Shown: piece after piece, positions 1,911-49,956 of the stretch | Position numbering within the stretch: position 1 is the first letter of the stretch | How the letters are laid out: each line of letters opens with the position of its first letter | Source: Gammaproteobacteria bacterium | GTDB lineage: Bacteria > Pseudomonadota > Gammaproteobacteria > Steroidobacterales > Steroidobacteraceae | Direction: 5' to 3' | Length of the DNA stretch: 64,000 bases | NCBI GenBank assembly: GCA_016874295.1 | Contig: VGUH01000014.1 | Location: 1 to 64,000, forward strand | The notes under the pieces: model-generated | Told to the model about the DNA's origin: nothing | What the model saw: the letters and a program-made list of their open reading frames with translations, nothing else | The model's database searches: none | Position numbers and translations under genes: made by a program

Positions 1911-3187
1911 TGCGCGAAGCCCAGGATATCGGAGGCATCCATTCCCGTCACGTCGATCTCCCTTTCCTCGTAGCCGATGCCGAGGCGCAGCTCGCCGCCC
2001 AGCAGCTTGCGCCGATGATACAGGTCCGCGGAGCGGATCGCAGCTGCGACCGGCGACACCGAGTGCACGGCATTGGCGCCCTCCCGGTTGATGTCCGCGT
2101 CCTGAAGCGCCAGCTCCCAACTGTCGCCCCTGCCGCCGACCAGCATGAAGCCCGCTGCGATCTGCCGGCTGTCGCCGTCGAGCGCATGGCCGACCGAGCG
2201 GTCCCGGTACTGGTAGCCATCCTCGTAAATAGAATTGCGGTAGGCGCAGCCGAACCGCGGCTCGCTCTGGTAGAACGCGCAGGCCGTATCCGCAACTTCG
2301 ACGTGCGCGCGCCAGGACCGGTCGCCCAGCCCGCCCCAGATCTCCAGGCCCGCCAGGCCCAGGTACTTGCTCGGCATCGAGTTCGCCTCGTCCTCGCCGA
2401 TCGCCTGCAGGTACAACGCGGCGGGCAGCCAGGGGATCGACCAGCGCATGTCGACGCCCGCCATCTGGTTGCCGGGCTGCAGGCTGGGGTCCTGGTCGTT
2501 GTCGTTGCCGGCGAGCAGGTCGAGGAAGGTGTCGAAGTCGCAGGGCCGGCCCTCGCCGCACCACTGCGCGCTCCTCGACAGCCCGAGTTCGAAGCGCGGG
2601 TGCGGCTTCCAGGTCGCGCGCATGCCGAAGAAGCGCGCGTCCGGCGCGTCGTCGCGGCTGCCCTCGAACTGGCCCATGGTCGCGACCAGGCGCCACTGCC
2701 CGATCCACGCGAGCCAGGGGTGATCGATGGGGTCGGAGAAGTTGCGCTCGATCGTGATCGAGGGCAGCGGTCGCGCGTTGGTGCCGAGGATCAGGCTGCC
2801 CTCCCAGCCCGGCCCCCACCAGCGGTCGAGGTAGCCGGCCGAGAGCATCCGGTTGCCGAGCACCATGCCGGCATAGCTGCCGTCCGCCCGGACGTCCTTG
2901 CCGCCGTCGGCATCCGCGACGACCGTCGCCTGCAGCCGCAGGGCGAAGCGGTCGCCCGTGTACTGCAGGGCGCCCGACAGCTCGCCCTCCTCGCGCGCGA
3001 CGTCGCCGAAGCGGCGCAGCGTCACGGGCTTCTCCGAGGCGGCGAGGCGCGCTTCGTAGGCCATCGACCCCACGCGCGTGGCGGCACGCGCCGCCCCCCG
3101 CACGCGCTTGAGCGCCGCATTCACGTACGCGGGCCGCGCCGTGTTCAATATTGCTGGCAACCGGTACCGCATCGTCGTATGGATCAA
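1889..3187 (-). CDS. Wzi-family capsule assembly protein, N-terminus missing
   Basis: Outer-membrane beta-barrel protein of the Wzi capsule-assembly family. Family hallmarks are GYLDRWWGPGWEGSLILGT and the following RPLPSITIERN, with barrel-like alternating strands to a C-terminal FAQWSASFK. Recognisable homology begins only near AALKRVRGAARAATRVGS (about position 3120). Upstream residues are the reverse strand of a HigB toxin fragment, and there is no signal peptide, which a Wzi protein needs. Roughly the first 80-110 residues of a normal Wzi have therefore been replaced at a recombination junction near 3120. The protein is probably not exported as it stands. The next in-frame ATG (AYEARLAAS) would not restore a signal either. 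The export gene follows with a 22 bp overlap. Confidence 0.75.
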   Translation of the reverse strand: MIHTTMRYRLPAILNTARPAYVNAALKRVRGAARAATRVGSMAYEARLAASEKPVTLRRFGDVAREEGELSGALQYTGDRFALRLQATVVADADGGKDVRADGSYAGMVLGNRMLSAGYLDRWWGPGWEGSLILGTNARPLPSITIERNFSDPIDHPWLAWIGQWRLVATMGQFEGSRDDAPDARFFGMRATWKPHPRFELGLSRSAQWCGEGRPCDFDTFLDLLAGNDNDQDPSLQPGNQMAGVDMRWSIPWLPAALYLQAIGEDEANSMPSKYLGLAGLEIWGGLGDRSWRAHVEVADTACAFYQSEPRFGCAYRNSIYEDGYQYRDRSVGHALDGDSRQIAAGFMLVGGRGDSWELALQDADINREGANAVHSVSPVAAAIRSADLYHRRKLLGGELRLGIGYEEREIDVTGMDASDILGFAQWSASFK

Positions 3188-3266
3188 CTATCCCTACCGG
3201 GTGCTGTACGTGCGCTTCATCGGCACGCATGCCGAATATGATCGGATCGACGCGCAGACCATCTGA
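3123..3266 (+). pseudogene. higB: HigB toxin C-terminal remnant
   Basis: C-terminal part of a HigB-family mRNA interferase. The frame encodes AGRAVFNIAGNRYRIVVWIN followed by YPYRVLYVRFIGTHAEYD and RIDAQTI, which is the characteristic C-terminal half of HigB (VFNI-GNKYRLVV, then FVGTHAEYD-ID). The N-terminal half is absent: the upstream sequence belongs to the antisense wzi-like gene, and the frame meets a TAG at 3057. A GTG at 3078 could start translation, but the catalytic domain would be incomplete. The higA antitoxin gene follows 12 bp downstream, the usual HigB-HigA order. Identity of the remnant is quite certain; loss of toxin activity is inferred. Confidence 0.85.
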
Positions 3267-3278
3267 GGTAGCCGCCCC

Positions 3279-3647
3279 GTGAATATCAAGCCGATCCGCA
3301 GCCAGAAGGACTATCGCACCGCACTGCGGGAAATTGATTCGCTCATGGACGCCGAGGCCGGATCGCCGGCCGGCGAGAAGCTGGATGTCCTCGTGACGCT
3401 GGTCGAGGCCTGGGAGCGGAAGCACTTCCCCATGGAGCTGCCTGAGCCGGTCGACGCGATCCGCTTTCAGATGGAACGCGGCGGGCTGTCGGCACGTGAC
3501 CTGGTGCCCATGATCGGGAAGCTCAATCGGGTATATGAGGTGCTGAACCGCCGGCGGCCGCTGACGCTCCGGATGATCTGGAACCTGCACCACCAGCTCG
3601 GCATTCCACTCGAGAGCCTGATCAAGCCGCCGCGCTGTGCAGACTGA
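3279..3647 (+). CDS. higA: HigA-type antitoxin, orphaned
   Basis: Antitoxin of the HigA family: a DNA-binding helix-turn-helix protein that neutralises HigB and represses its own operon. The 122-residue product starts with MNIKPIRSQKDYRTALREID, typical of the HigA N-terminus. The HTH lies around ERGGLSARDLVPMIGKLNRV (residues about 67-86), and the C-terminus LHHQLGIPLESLIKP is also typical. Length is normal and the frame is intact. Its partner toxin immediately upstream is truncated, so this is an orphan antitoxin. Its own promoter and N-terminal toxin sequence were lost at the junction with the wzi-like gene, so expression is uncertain. It could still bind operators or neutralise related toxins elsewhere; that is inference. 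Confidence 0.88.
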   Translation: MNIKPIRSQKDYRTALREIDSLMDAEAGSPAGEKLDVLVTLVEAWERKHFPMELPEPVDAIRFQMERGGLSARDLVPMIGKLNRVYEVLNRRRPLTLRMIWNLHHQLGIPLESLIKPPRCAD

Positions 3648-3707
3648 TGTGATGGACAAGCTCGATTGAAACAAGTCCTACGACTGCAAGGCTGAGCGTT
3701 CCCGCTC

Positions 3708-6419: not shown

Positions 6420-7717
6420 CACAGCCTGCCGTCGGACTGGCCGCGGTTCAGCAGGTACTTGATGTCGTAGATGACGTGCCTGCGCTTCGCGAGCCGGCGG
6501 ATCTCCTCCGGGCGCATGGCGAGGAACTCCCGATGCGCGACCGCGAGCACGATCGCGTCGTAACGGCCGCGCGCGGGCCGCTTCACCGGCTTGAAGCCGT
6601 ACTCCGCCTGCGCCTCGCGCGCATCCACCCACGGATCCCAGACATCCACCCTCGCCCGGTGCGCCTGAAGTTCGGCGATCAGGTCCGCAACCTTGGAATT
6701 GCGCAAGTCCGGCGTGTTCTCCTTGAAGGCGAGGCCCATCACCAGCACGCGCGAGGCGTTTACGTGGATACGCTTCGCCACCATCAGGCGGATGATCTCG
6801 CCCGCGACGTACAGCGCCATGTTGTCGTTGATGCGCCGGCCCGCGAGGATCATCTCCGGGTGATAGCCGATCTGCTGCGCCTTGTGCGTCAGGTAGTAGG
6901 GATCGACGCCGATGCAGTGCCCGCCGACCAGGCCGGGCCGGAACGGCAGGAAATTCCACTTGCTGCCCGCGGCCTCGAGCACCTCCTGGGTGTCGATGCC
7001 GAGACGGTTGAAGATTATCGCCAGCTCGTTGATGAGCGCGATGTTGACGTCGCGCTGCGTGTTCTCGATCACCTTGGCCGCCTCGGCGACGCGGATCGAC
7101 GAGGCCTTGTGCGTGCCTGCCTTGACGATCGAGCCATAGAGCCTGTCGACGAACTCGGCCGCCGCGGGCGTCGATCCTGACGTGACCTTGCGGATGGTCG
7201 GCAGCCGGTGCTCCCGGTCGCCCGGATTGATCCGCTCGGGGCTGTAGCCCGCGTAGAAGTCCCGGTTGAACTTGAGGCCCGACTGCTTTTCAAGGATCGG
7301 GACGCAGATCTCCTCGGTGCAGCCCGGGAACACGGTCGACTCGTAGATCACGATATCGCCGCGCTTCAGCACTTTCCCGACCGACTCGCTCGCGCGTTCG
7401 AGCGGCGCGAGGTCCGGTCGGCGATCGGCGTCTATGGGTGTCGGGACCGTGACGACGAAGACGTTGCAGGACTTGAGATCACGAAGCTCCGCGCTGAAGC
7501 GCAGCCGCTTTGCCCCGGCCAGCTCCCTGCGCTCGACCTCGAGCGTGCGGTCCCGGCCGCGCCTGAGGTCGGCGATGCGGTCCGGGTCGATGTCGAAGCC
7601 CACCGTGTCGTAGTGCCTGCCGAACTCGACCGCGAGCGGCAGCCCGACGTAGCCGAGCCCGAGCACGCCGATGCGGCAGCCATGCAGCGAAAGCCCGCGG
7701 GACTTCTCACGCGCCAC
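6419..7717 (-). CDS. Nucleotide-sugar 6-dehydrogenase (TviB/WbpA-like)
   Basis: NAD-dependent four-electron dehydrogenase that oxidises a UDP-sugar to its uronate. The 432-residue protein has the N-terminal Rossmann motif [18 protein letters not shown], the TVPTPID loop, the catalytic-cysteine motif [14 protein letters not shown] and the late [19 protein letters not shown] segment. These favour the TviB/WbpA branch (UDP-GlcNAc or UDP-GalNAc) over classical UDP-glucose dehydrogenases, but substrate is not fixed by the sequence I can see. I chose the GTG at 7717, which overlaps the dnaQ end by 11 bp; homology starts 11 codons later. Product and epimerase together supply an acidic sugar for the neighbouring export system. 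Confidence 0.9.
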
Positions 7718-8423
7718 GGGCTCCCCCGGCGCGAAACAGCGTGCGCCCGCCCGAGGCGCGATCGATCGTCTCGAGTGCCTCGCCGTGGGCCGCGAGCTCG
7801 GCCTCATTCGCCCGCACCACCGGAATCCGGGCACGGGCACGCGCGGCGGAGCGCGCCGCGACCCGCGGCCCGGTAGCCGCCGACGCCGCGTCGAGCCCGA
7901 GTGCTGCCTGGCCGCCGCTCATCGCGAGATAGACGTCGGCGAGGATCCGGGCGTCCTTCAGGGCGCCGTGCAGGTCCCGGCCGGTGTTGTCCACGTTGTA
8001 CCGCTTGCAGAGCGCGTCGAGGCTGTTGCGCTGGCCCGGGTGCATGCGCCGCGCGAGCGCAAGCGTGTCGAGCACCCGGCAGCGGTCCGCGATGGTCTCG
8101 GTCATGCCCGATGCGGCGAGCTCGGCGTCGAGGAAGCCCACGTCGAACTCGGCGTTGTGGATCACGAGCTCGGCGCCCTCCACGAACGCAAGGAACTCCG
8201 CAGCGACGTCGGCGAATGCCGGCTGCGCGGCCAGGAATTCGTTGCTGATCCCGTGCACCTCGAGCGCGCCCGGATCGACCTCCCGCCCCGGCTTCAGGTA
8301 GCGGTGCCAGTGGCGGCCGGTCGGCCGGCGATGCACCAGCTCGATGCACCCGATCTCGATGATGCGATGCCCGTCGGCGAGCTCGAGGCCTGTCGTTTCG
8401 GTGTCAAGGACGATCTGGCGCAC
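7707..8423 (-). CDS. dnaQ: DNA polymerase III epsilon subunit (proofreading exonuclease)
   Basis: 3'-5' exonuclease that proofreads for the replicative polymerase. All three exonuclease motifs of the DEDDh family are present: Exo[10 protein letters not shown] (about residues 6-14), Exo[13 protein letters not shown] and Exo[16 protein letters not shown]. The 238-residue length matches E. coli DnaQ (243). The C-terminal third is Ala/Arg-rich and would carry the polymerase-binding tail. rnhA lies upstream on the same strand, as in E. coli, but separated here by a large inverted repeat. Downstream it overlaps the nucleotide-sugar dehydrogenase gene by 11 bp, an unusual coupling of a replication gene to polysaccharide genes. 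Confidence 0.95.
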
Positions 8424-10578: not shown

Positions 10579-12194
10579 TTGATGCGCGATTCGGGATCCT
10601 GGCGCCGCTCGCCCTGGCCGTCGCCGCACTTTCGCTCGCCGGCTGCGCCTCGCAATCGGCCACGAGTGCTCCCGCGCCGCTGCCCGAGCAGGTCGCCAGC
10701 ACCCAGGCCGGGGACCCGATCGCCGACGATGGCGACAGCGCCGGGACGTCGCCCGAGGAACTGGAAGCCGAGGCGCCGCAGGTCGAGCCGCTCGCGTCGG
10801 CGGTCGCCTACGGCGACGTGGTCGTGCGCATCCGCAACAACCTGGTCCTGCCCCAGGTCAGCCACCCGCGCGTGGACCGCGAGATCGAGTGGCTGCAGCG
10901 CAATCCCGATTACCTCGCCCGCGTGTTCGGCCGCGCGCAGCGTTACCTGCACTACGTAGCCAACGAGGTCGAGGCGAAAGGCCTGCCCGCCGACCTCGCA
11001 CTGTTGCCGGTGGTCGAGAGCGCCTTCAACCCGTTCGCCTACTCGCGCGCCCATGCCTCCGGCCTGTGGCAATTCATCGCGCCGACCGGCGAGCTGTACC
11101 GCCTGCGCCGCAACTACTGGAAGGACGAGCGCCGCGACGTACTCGAATCCACGCGCGCCGCGCTCGAGTACCTCACGGCGCTCAGGGAGCGCTTCGACGG
11201 CGACTGGTTCCTGGCGATCGCGGCCTACAACTACGGCACGGGCAATGTCCAGCGCGCGGTCAATCGCAACAGGGCGCTCGGCCGGCGCACGGATTTCTTC
11301 TCGCTGTCCCTGCCCGCCGAGACCCGCGCCTATGTGCCGAAGCTGATCGCGCTCGCGAAGATGGTGAGCGAGCCGGATCGTTACGGCTTCTACTTGCCGC
11401 CGGTGCCGGACGCGCCGTATTTCCGCGTGGTGCCGACCGAGGGCCCGGTGGACCTGCGGCTGATGGCCGAGCTCGCGGGCGTCGATCCCGAAGAGCTGCA
11501 TGCGCTCAACCCCGGCTGGAACCGCTGGATGACCGACCCGGACGGCCCGCACCGCGTGCTGGTGCCGGAAGTGGTCGCCGACGGCTTCACCGCGAAGCTC
11601 GCGGCGCTCGACGGCAGCGCCCGCGCGCGGCTCGCGGTGCACACCGTGGTTCCGGGTGAATCGCTGGCCTCCATCGCCGGCTATTACAAGGTGCCGGAGA
11701 CCGTCATCGACCGCATGAACGGGGGGCCCCAGACCGGCCTCAGGCCCGGCGACGCGCTCTGGGTGCCGGCGGGCGACGTTTCGCAGCTGCACGCGGGGCT
11801 GGGATCGGACCTGGAACGGCGCCTGCACCGAGTGAAAAGCGGCGAGTCACTGTGGAGCATTTCGCGCCGCTACGGCATGACGGTGGCGCAGCTCGCACGC
11901 ATGAACCATATCTCGACCAAGGCGGTGCTCCAGCCGGGCCAGCGCCTGCAGGTCGCGGGCAGCGGCGGCAGCGGCGCATCGGGCTCCGAGGCCGCCGAGG
12001 CACGCACGGCGGCCGTGGACGGCAAGGTGAACTACAAGGTGAGGCGCGGCGATACCCTGTCCGGAATCGCGCGCCGCTACGCGGTGACCGTCCGCGAGTT
12101 GCAGTCATGGAATAACATGGGCGGCAGCACCGCGCTGCGCGCCGGGCAGTCCCTGACCATCCACGTCGGAGGCGGCACGGGCGTCGGCGGCTGA
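10575..12194 (+). CDS. mltD: Membrane-bound lytic murein transglycosylase D
   Basis: Periplasmic lipoprotein that cleaves peptidoglycan with formation of anhydromuramic ends. The 539-residue protein has a signal with a lipobox ending at Cys24 (LSLAGC), an SLT catalytic domain with the probable catalytic Glu148 in VVESAFNPFAYSRAHASGLW, and three LysM peptidoglycan-binding modules at roughly 356-400, 418-461 and 486-530. E. coli MltD has the same plan with two LysM modules. The ATG overlaps the gloB stop (ATGA). The gloB-mltD neighbourhood is conserved in Enterobacteria, which supports the name. Confidence 0.94.
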   Translation: MIDARFGILAPLALAVAALSLAGCASQSATSAPAPLPEQVASTQAGDPIADDGDSAGTSPEELEAEAPQVEPLASAVAYGDVVVRIRNNLVLPQVSHPRVDREIEWLQRNPDYLARVFGRAQRYLHYVANEVEAKGLPADLALLPVVESAFNPFAYSRAHASGLWQFIAPTGELYRLRRNYWKDERRDVLESTRAALEYLTALRERFDGDWFLAIAAYNYGTGNVQRAVNRNRALGRRTDFFSLSLPAETRAYVPKLIALAKMVSEPDRYGFYLPPVPDAPYFRVVPTEGPVDLRLMAELAGVDPEELHALNPGWNRWMTDPDGPHRVLVPEVVADGFTAKLAALDGSARARLAVHTVVPGESLASIAGYYKVPETVIDRMNGGPQTGLRPGDALWVPAGDVSQLHAGLGSDLERRLHRVKSGESLWSISRRYGMTVAQLARMNHISTKAVLQPGQRLQVAGSGGSGASGSEAAEARTAAVDGKVNYKVRRGDTLSGIARRYAVTVRELQSWNNMGGSTALRAGQSLTIHVGGGTGVGG

Positions 12195-13049: not shown

Positions 13050-13125
13050 CTGAGGGTGCCGGGTCGCACTTATCGCACTTATTGCTTTGGCAATAAGTGC
13101 GATAAGTGCGACCCGGCACCCTCAG
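13050..13125. repeat. Family 2 palindrome, copy A (36-bp perfect arms)
   Basis: Arms 13050-13085 and 13090-13125 are perfectly complementary over 36 bp, with a TTTG loop. Each arm contains GGTGCCGGGTC followed by two near-identical nine-mers, GCACTTATC and GCACTTATT. Copies at 26841 and 47080 share this sequence. It sits between the convergent stops of fabI and ppiD. A transcript from either strand would form the same very stable hairpin, so a bidirectional terminator or transcript-end stabiliser is a reasonable role; there is no U-tract after it. Confidence 0.93.
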
Positions 13126-26840: not shown

Positions 26841-26901
26841 GGTGCCGGGTCGCACTTATCGCACTTATTGGCAATAAGTGCGATAAGTGCGACCCGGCAC
26901 C
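26841..26901. repeat. Family 2 palindrome, copy B
   Basis: Arms 26841-26870 and 26872-26901 are perfectly complementary over 30 bp around a single central G. The sequence equals copy A up to the apex (TTATTG G CAATAA instead of TTATTGC TTTG GCAATAA). The preceding CTGAG also matches copy A, but the matching right end is replaced by the cysS stop, one base further on. It separates the convergent folD and cysS stops. Confidence 0.93.
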
Positions 26902-47079: not shown

Positions 47080-47148
47080 GGTGCCGGGTCGCACTTATCG
47101 TACTTATTGGGCATCGCCCAATAAGTACGATAAGTGCGACCCGGCACC
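47080..47148. repeat. Family 2 palindrome, copy C with compensatory change
   Basis: Arms 47080-47112 and 47116-47148 are perfectly complementary over 33 bp with an ATC loop. Compared with copies A and B the second nine-mer is GTACTTATT instead of GCACTTATT, and the opposite arm has changed in step (AATAAGTAC), so pairing is kept. The apex is TTATTGGGC/GCCCAATAA. It lies three bases from both convergent stops (msrC and efp). Confidence 0.93.
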
Positions 47149-47151
47149 ATG

Positions 47152-47718
47152 CTACTTCGCGCGGGCGATATAGGCGGCGCTGCGCGTATCGACCTTGATG
47201 ACTTCGCCCTGGTTGATGAACAGCGGCACCTTGACGACGGCCCCAGTCTCTAGCTTGGCCTGCTTCGTGCCGCCGGTGACGGTGTCGCCGCGCATGCCGG
47301 GATCCGTCTCGACGATCTTGAGCTCGACGTGCGGCGGGGGCGTCACCGTCAGCGGCTGGCCATTCCAGAGCGTCACGATGCAGACCGTGCCGTCCTTGAG
47401 CCACTGCGCGGCGTCACCGATTGCGGTCTCACCGGCCGCGAGCTGCTCGTAGGATTCCGGGTTCATGAAGTGCCAGAACTGCCCGTCGGAATACAGGAAC
47501 TGCATGTCGGCATCCATGACGTCCGCCGCCTCGACGGAATCGCCGGACTTGAACGTGCGCTCGATGACCCGCCCGGTGCGCAGGTTCCTGATGCGCACGC
47601 GATTGAAGGCCTGGCCCTTGCCTGGCTTCACGAACTCGTTTTCCACGATCGTGAACGGGTCGCCGTCGAGCAGGATCTTGAGGCCGGAGCGGAATTCGCT
47701 GGTGTTGTAGCTGGACAT
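47152..47718 (-). CDS. efp: Elongation factor P
   Basis: Relieves ribosome stalling at polyproline stretches. The 188-residue three-domain protein has the modification site Lys34 in [10 protein letters not shown], the type changed by EpmA, and [36 protein letters not shown] and [18 protein letters not shown]. The start [15 protein letters not shown] at 47718 is the family start. Divergent from the FimX-like gene across 186 bp. Confidence 0.97.
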
Positions 47719-47904: not shown

Positions 47905-49437
47905 ATGAAGCCGATTTCCGCGGTCCCGATGATTGCCCTGACACGCAGCCAGGACAACGTCGAGGCGATCAACAAGGCGCTCCGGAACGCCGGCCACCCG
48001 GTCCACGTGACCTGGCTGCCGGACGCGCGCGACCTCGGCGACGTATTGACCCAGGCCTCGGCCGAGATGCTCATGCTGTTCGCCGACGAGGGGATCGTCG
48101 ACCTCGCGAGCGCCATGGATTTCCGCGCCCGTTTTACCCCCGAGGTGCCGGTCCTCATCGTGCGCGACAAACTGGACGAGAACGAGATCGCGAAGTCCCT
48201 CGCGCTCGGCGCGCAGGACGCCGTGACCCTAGGCAATGTGCCCCGGCTGCAGCTGGTAGTCGGCCGCGAACTGCGCACCTTCCGTCTCGACCGCGCGCTG
48301 TCGGCGACGCTCGCTTCGGCCCGCGAAGCCAAGAAACAACTGCAGCACATCGTCGAAAGCTCGACCGACGCGATTGCGCAGGTCCAGGAGGGCATCATCG
48401 TCGACGCGAACCCTGCATGGCTCGCGCTGTTCGGGTACTCGAACCCCGAAGAAGTCGTCGGTACGCCGCTGATGGATGCATTCGATCCCGACGACCACGC
48501 CGCCATTAAGGGCGCATTGGTCGCCAGCATGCATGGCAAGTGGTCCGGACACACGCTGCGCGCCTCGGCGCTGGTCGTGAGCGGCCACCATCCGTCGCTC
48601 GAGTTCCAGCTCGTGCGCGCCGAGTTCGACGGTGAGCCCTGCGTGCAGGTCGTCGTGCCGGCCAAGGTCGGCGACGCAGGGGAATACGAACGCAAGCTCC
48701 AAGAGGCGCTGCAGAGCGACCCCGCGACGGGCTTCCTGCACCGCCGCAATTTCATCGAAAAACTCCGCGAGCGGATCAGCGAGCCCGTCCGGGGCGGCGT
48801 GCGCTGCATCGCCTACATCGAGCCGGACAAGTACCAGGCGCTGCACGAGGAACTCGGCGTCCTGTCCGGCGAGGAGTTCCTCTCGGACTTCGCCCGGGTA
48901 TTGCGCGAGCAGCTGCAGCCCGGCGACCTCGCGGGTCGCTTCGGCGGGAATGGATTCATGCTGCTCGTCGAACGCGGCAACACCCGGGACGTCGAGGCCT
49001 GGTCGGAGCACGTGGTGCACAAGGTGGCGACCGAAGTGTTCCAGGCCGGTGCCAAGTCCATGTCCACCACCTGCACCATCGGCCTCGGGCCCGTGCCAGC
49101 CGAGGTGCGCACGCCCGAAGGCCCGGCGAGCGACGCCTACCAGGCGCAGCGCCAGGGCCGGGAGATGGGCGGCAACCGCGTGCAGCTGCTCGAACACACG
49201 GGCGCAATGCTGCGACTGCAGGACCAGGACCGACTCTGGGTGCAGCGGATCAGGACGGCGCTCGAGGAGAGCCGCTTCCGGCTCGTGCAGCAGCCGATCG
49301 CGAGCCTGGTCGGCGAAGACCTCGGCATGTACGACGTGCTGGTGCGCATGCTGGACGAGCAGGGCCAGGAGGTGCTGCCGTCGGCATTCATGCCAGCCGC
49401 CGAGCGCAACGATCTCATGAAGGACATCGACCGCTAA
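47905..49437 (+). CDS. FimX-like protein, N-terminal part (ends at in-frame TAA)
   Basis: Cyclic-di-GMP signalling protein resembling FimX, which controls type IV pili and twitching. This 510-residue part has a receiver-like domain (about 1-120; no phosphoacceptor at the usual place), a PAS domain (about 148-255, [20 protein letters not shown]), a degenerate GGDEF domain (GGNGF in [13 protein letters not shown]) and the beginning of an EAL domain ([21 protein letters not shown] instead of an EAL triad). It stops at TAA 49435-49437 after NDLMKDIDR, exactly where homologues have a Trp (IDRWV). The rest of the EAL domain continues in the same frame. ATG 47905 has GGAG upstream. Confidence 0.85.
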
Positions 49438-49956
49438 GTGATCAGCGCGGCGATGTCGTTCTGTGCGGCGCGCAAGCCCGGTGCGCTGTTCGTCCGGCTT
49501 TCGCAGGACACGCTCGCGGACGCGGCGCTGCCTGACTGGCTTTCGGACGATCTCAAGAAGGCGAAGATCGAGCCGGCGCGCATCGTGTTCCAGGTCCGCG
49601 AGGAATCGGCCGCGCAGCAGATCAAGGAGGCCGTCGCACTGCACAAGGCGCTCGCGGAGCGCGGCTTCCGATTCGCGCTGGAGGGTTTCGGTGTCGGACG
49701 CGACACCGAGCAGCTCCTGAACCACCTGAAGCCGGACTTCGTGAAGATCCGCGGCGCACTGATGCAGGGCCTCTCGGCCGACCAGGGCAAGCAGGCGCGC
49801 GTGAAAGCGATGGTCGAACTCGCCCGCAAGTGCAAGGCGATCACGATCGGCGAGCGCGTGCAGGACGCCAACACGATGGCCGTGCTGTGGCAGCTCGGCG
49901 TCGAGTTCATCCAGGGCTATTTCGTCAACGCGCCCGAGGAAGTCGTCCTCGGCTGA
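49438..49956 (+). CDS. FimX-like protein, C-terminal EAL part after in-frame stop
   Basis: 172 codons in the same frame as the preceding gene, beginning directly after its TAA with GTG (stop-start TAAGTG). It encodes the remaining EAL domain: VISAAMSFCAARKPGALFVR, FQVREESAAQQIKEAV, LEGFGVGRDTEQLLNHLKPD, FVKIRGALMQG and a C-terminal GVEFIQGYFVNAP. Catalytic EAL residues are replaced, as in FimX, which binds but does not cleave c-di-GMP. An AAGGA lies 13 bases before the GTG, so re-initiation is possible. Otherwise this is the tail of a disrupted gene. No further frameshifts or stops are seen, so decay, if any, is recent. Confidence 0.75.
   Translation: MISAAMSFCAARKPGALFVRLSQDTLADAALPDWLSDDLKKAKIEPARIVFQVREESAAQQIKEAVALHKALAERGFRFALEGFGVGRDTEQLLNHLKPDFVKIRGALMQGLSADQGKQARVKAMVELARKCKAITIGERVQDANTMAVLWQLGVEFIQGYFVNAPEEVVLG

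Follow-up and report, generated by a model that had tools for sequence, protein, structure and literature searches.

What does an in-frame stop codon mean in a FimX-like gene whose frame continues beyond it: an error in the sequence, a protein made in two pieces, or a gene that has recently been lost? The question is raised by a locus in the 64,000-nucleotide stretch of DNA analysed here (the window), which belongs to a metagenome-assembled genome (MAG) of the Steroidobacteraceae (2.37 Mb in 46 contigs, 98.8% complete and 0.13% contaminated). The elements of the locus are as follows.

47905..49437, + strand: 5' part of the fimX orthologue (ATG at 47905, 510 codons plus TAA)
49435..49437, + strand: in-frame TAA at a Trp codon that is invariant in the relatives
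49438..49956, + strand: 3' remainder of fimX with the rest of the EAL domain (172 codons plus TGA at 49954-49956)
47158..47718, - strand: efp-like gene, divergent from fimX

The earlier note on this DNA described a FimX-like gene split by an in-frame TAA, with a GTG directly after the stop and no further lesion downstream. This description is confirmed: the frame opened at 47905 ends at the TAA, a GTG stands at 49438, and the frame then stays open up to the TGA. The stop lies in the context AACGATCTCATGAAGGACATCGACCGC TAA GTG ATC AGC GCG GCG ATG, and the residues NDLMKDIDR that precede it are continued, in the same frame, by VISAAMSFCAARK. The 5' part comprises an N-terminal REC-like region, a PAS domain, a degenerate GGDEF domain and the first quarter of the EAL domain. 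Pfam matches before the stop are PAS, GGDEF and positions 2-65 of the 236-position EAL profile, and those after it are EAL positions 82-235; the PAS-GGDEF-EAL order thus spans both pieces, and the c-di-GMP-binding EAL domain, intact in the relatives, is cut after profile position 65.

The designation FimX-like is also borne out, by this domain order and by structural matches. FimX(GGDEF-EAL) 7lkq heads the PDB matches of the 5' part, which also include 4j40, and the four best matches of the 3' part are all FimX chains (3hv9, which ranks first, 3hv8, 4afy and 4j40). We take 7lkq to be the FimX of Xanthomonas citri and 4j40 that of Pseudomonas aeruginosa (organism names partly from PMC8389850). 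The catalytic motifs are degenerate in the translation, with GGNGF in place of GGDEF and DVL in place of EAL. Residues 1-143 gave no Pfam family match even at E 10; the region is conserved in the orthologues. Orthology to fimX is further supported because the efp-like gene also adjoins fimX in a sister genome. A genome search found no second fimX copy.

The stop occupies the position of a conserved Trp, as the earlier note had proposed. The codon is TGG in 108 of the 109 readable loci, i.e. in all the relatives with a readable codon (91 distinct sequences after duplicate removal), and TAA in the window only. None of the 108 relatives has a split fimX gene, and in each of the five genomes of the genus that include the site, fimX is a single uninterrupted open frame. 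In a further genome of the genus, G001, only the 5' half of fimX is present, as the contig ends there. With identity to the nearest relative at only about 84%, the age of the lesion is poorly bounded. As a matter of counting, the remark that TGG to TAA needs two changes stands; two separate events are not required, as the GG to AA change could be one. GG to AA is CC to TT on the other strand and can arise as one tandem event, and TAA can also be reached from TGG in two steps, via TAG or TGA.

Divergence downstream of the stop is not accelerated. At codon positions 1+2, the branch length of the window sequence is 0.055 for the 5' part and 0.069 for the 3' part, and that of the closest sister (L003) 0.043 and 0.061, respectively. 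The factor by which identity to the sister genomes drops from the 5' to the 3' part is about the same for the window as for sister-sister pairs. The 3' part has 36 near-invariant positions, of which one differs in the window, and none of the 50 single-base changes (out of 1548 possible) that would make another stop there is present. Relaxed evolution of the 3' part was therefore rejected as proof of a pseudogene, since divergence after the stop resembles that of the sisters. The absence of accelerated divergence fits either a lesion that is recent when measured against the divergence of these species, or a 3' part that is still under selection. The gene is disrupted in this genome and intact in its orthologues, as expected of a pseudogene with a nonsense allele, and the TAA is most likely a genuine and recent null allele of fimX.

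The earlier note had supposed that such a null mutation would affect twitching motility. This is misleading, because the machinery for twitching is already missing. PilA, PilB, PilC, PilN-P and PilJ are absent from the genome, as are nearly all of PilM, PilQ and ChpA. The co-presence of FimX with PilB, PilZ and a type IVa pilus is thus not found here, PilZ being the one that is present. Comparison with the sister species, made over targeted stretches around the pilus loci, shows that at least six separate deletions, which lie inside contigs, took away almost the whole set of type IVa pilus and Pil-Chp genes. The deletion loci are located in this genome outside the window (L118 11459-11936, L161 9410-10456, L188 2507-3481, L173 8200-8854, L119 5200-5560 and L146 6300-7530).

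Deletion A (sucC-coaE interval, some 6.8 kb missing): pilR, pilA, pilB and pilC gone; roughly the first 35-50 pilS codons run in frame into pilD
Deletion B (ponA-aroK interval, some 4.6 kb missing): pilM now abuts the final pilQ codons, pilN-O-P lost; the flanks overlap by 18 bp
Deletion C: of three pilT/pilU paralogues in tandem, a single chimeric ORF (353 residues, intact) is left, the middle paralogue lost
Deletion D: pilH, pilI, pilJ and the bulk of chpA gone; pilG now meets the chpA 3' end (8-bp overlap), chpC remaining
Deletion E: of a HEAT-repeat/kinase gene and two pilT-like genes, only two ends remain, out of frame; the first gene now runs up to the C-terminal part of a pilT-like one
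Deletion F: pilW and pilE meet inside the sequence that codes for the pilin signal (38-bp overlap); pilX and pilY1 lost

Several junctions lie at short repeats or inside paralogous genes, and three of the deletions left in-frame fusions, namely pilS::pilD, pilT::pilU and pilM::pilQ, the last with a TAG at which the 130-residue pilM remnant ends. Domain searches of the whole genome agree with these losses. There was no match to PilB (TIGR02538), and the PF00437 matches were limited to GspE, a single ORF resembling PilT/PilU, a fragment from a C-terminus and a weak hit. No Hpt domain was found in the genome, versus 4-6 matches in each of five sisters, and N-methyl pilin signals number 7, versus 13-16 in the sisters. 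The survivors are pilZ (intact beside holB), pilD, fimT, pilV and chpC. Type II secretion genes gspD-E-F and pseudopilin-like genes are present, and PilD was probably kept because it also serves this secretion system.

In the sister genome G003 (L140 5188-10164) a HEAT-repeat protein with a Ser/Thr-kinase-like C-terminus is followed by two pilT-like genes. The truncation or loss of all three genes at L119 suggests that the HEAT-repeat kinase has a pilus-linked role. An ispH-linked minor-pilin cluster was not found here either; the contig ends at that point and no deletion is claimed. The absence of PilB from G001 and G003 was likewise rejected as a shared loss, since their pilB regions appear to fall in assembly gaps. 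The pilM gene of G001 (L141 ~6800-7910) is full length with two in-frame stops (TAG and TAA), which perhaps represent an independent decay of the pilus in this genome, itself only 75% complete. As a separate observation, inverted paired copies of GGTGCCGGGTCGCACTTATCG(C/T)ACTTATT occur in the window at 13055-13120, 26841-26901 and 47080-47148, and a fourth pair lies directly beside the pilM::pilQ deletion scar (L118 ~11957-12091); they look like a dispersed palindromic repeat family.

In the stretches aligned with the sisters, which cover fimX and four deletion loci, breakage or loss of conserved genes affects the pilus genes, their HEAT/kinase neighbour and fimX, and the rest look intact (the remaining stops in these stretches belong, by reading, to overlapping spurious ORFs; loci D and F were compared by alignment only). 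Ordinary differences in gene content also exist, e.g. a xanthine-dehydrogenase-like gene beside the pilT cluster of G003. The idea of a lesion-rich, poor-quality genome was rejected, as the window holds no other comparable in-frame stop and neighbouring conserved genes look intact. When the whole window was scanned by coding potential for other in-frame stops flanked by coding signal, only one natural gene end (3264) came up. This TGA is the end of a HigB-like toxin gene, followed by a HigA-like antitoxin gene (~3140-3650), and by eye the pair is an ordinary toxin-antitoxin system, in which the toxin gene seems short in its upstream part.

Within the order Steroidobacterales, fimX orthologues are present in 30 of the 34 genomes searched for both fimX and PilM. 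A full-length PilM match accompanies 28 of the 30, the exceptions being the present genome and one with pilM split between contigs; none of the four genomes without fimX has a full-length canonical PilM. This co-occurrence, in counts that ignore relatedness, fits a functional tie of fimX to the pilus.

Based on these observations, we suggest with considerable confidence that fimX was recently inactivated here and is now a pseudogene, in a lineage of the Steroidobacteraceae whose type IVa pilus has been lost. The pilus genes went in several independent deletions. With PilB and the pilus base gone, the c-di-GMP receptor FimX would have been left without its known target, and because of this, selection on fimX would have relaxed. 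A stop codon arising at the EAL domain's conserved Trp may then have become fixed or common. FimX could, on the other hand, have a role independent of the pilus. The expected product would be a protein of 510 residues with REC-like, PAS and GGDEF parts and no complete c-di-GMP-binding EAL domain, and a functional product is presumably not made from fimX. The proposal of a recent null mutation is upheld by the TAA set against TGG in the relatives and by the loss of the pilus machinery; the TAA is not the cause of the loss of twitching.

A sequencing or assembly error, in which the real codon is TGG and fimX is intact, is improbable in our judgement. In its favour, the genome is a metagenome assembly, and the frame downstream of the TAA is otherwise undamaged and constrained. 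On the other hand, an error would need two adjacent substitutions, and a real lesion in fimX is to be expected because PilA, PilB, PilC, PilM-Q and ChpA have been lost. The pilM remnant, moreover, carries a second nonsense codon.

We give an equally low probability to a scenario in which the pilus was dismantled under positive selection, e.g. by pilus-dependent phages, through repeated deletions at the six or more loci, several of which left in-frame fusions, and in which some leftovers (truncated FimX, PilZ and the PilT::PilU chimera) were kept for new use.

Rather doubtful, too, is that the 510-residue protein is itself retained without its EAL domain, perhaps together with PilZ, for a purpose other than the pilus. 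The intact pilZ and the continuing constraint on the 5' part speak for it. However, the 3' part is equally constrained, suggesting that too little time has passed to tell, and P. aeruginosa FimX devoid of the EAL domain has no activity in pilus assembly and is mislocalised, as it also is without PilB (PMC5595344). An unaccelerated 3' part would also appear if this part were still used. This bears on another proposal of the earlier note, a two-piece FimX for which ribosomes would stop at the TAA and restart at the adjacent GTG, the pieces reassembling into a working EAL domain. The one Shine-Dalgarno-like match upstream of the GTG is the following.

49420..49424, + strand: AAGGA, 13 nt upstream of GTG 49438

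The TAAGTG adjacency, this motif and the open, not fast-evolving 3' part are in its favour, yet such a split is the least probable of all, as pairing with the 16S tail reaches -5.4 kcal/mol, a value that about 29% of random coding 20-mers equal or beat, no relative has a split, the partner PilB is absent, which leaves no evident use, and the downstream piece has neither the first strands nor the E-x-L motif of the EAL barrel and would have to reassemble with the upstream piece.

Taken as a recent null allele, the fimX stop is in itself ordinary gene decay. Its context constitutes a clear natural record of the loss of a multi-locus machine: structural operons were deleted, several of them at short repeats or between paralogues, pilD, which type II secretion also uses, remains, and fimX, the gene of the dedicated receptor for c-di-GMP, is caught with a single lesion. 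Across the Steroidobacterales, co-occurrence would tie FimX to type IV pili.

The FimX of P. aeruginosa and X. citri is a REC-PAS-GGDEF-EAL receptor of c-di-GMP that acts on PilB. In P. aeruginosa it binds c-di-GMP via its EAL domain and interacts with PilB (PMC5595344), in X. citri a PilB-PilZ-FimX complex forms in which PilZ links the EAL domain of FimX to the N-terminus of PilB (PMC8389850), and FimX promotes pilus extension through PilB (PMC12533971). The window gene shares with these proteins the PAS-GGDEF-EAL order and the degenerate GGDEF and EAL motifs, and P. aeruginosa FimX has a Trp (IDRW) at the position of its stop. It differs from them in the TAA inside the EAL domain, in a REC region that Pfam does not recognise and in that PilB, the target, is missing from the genome. 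Lineage-specific losses of type IV pili that leave pseudogene remnants are a known counterpart, and here likewise a regulator decays and dispersed structural genes are deleted. What differs is that at least six loci carry clean deletions, several of which left fused ORFs, and the loss is seen in an uncultured environmental MAG.
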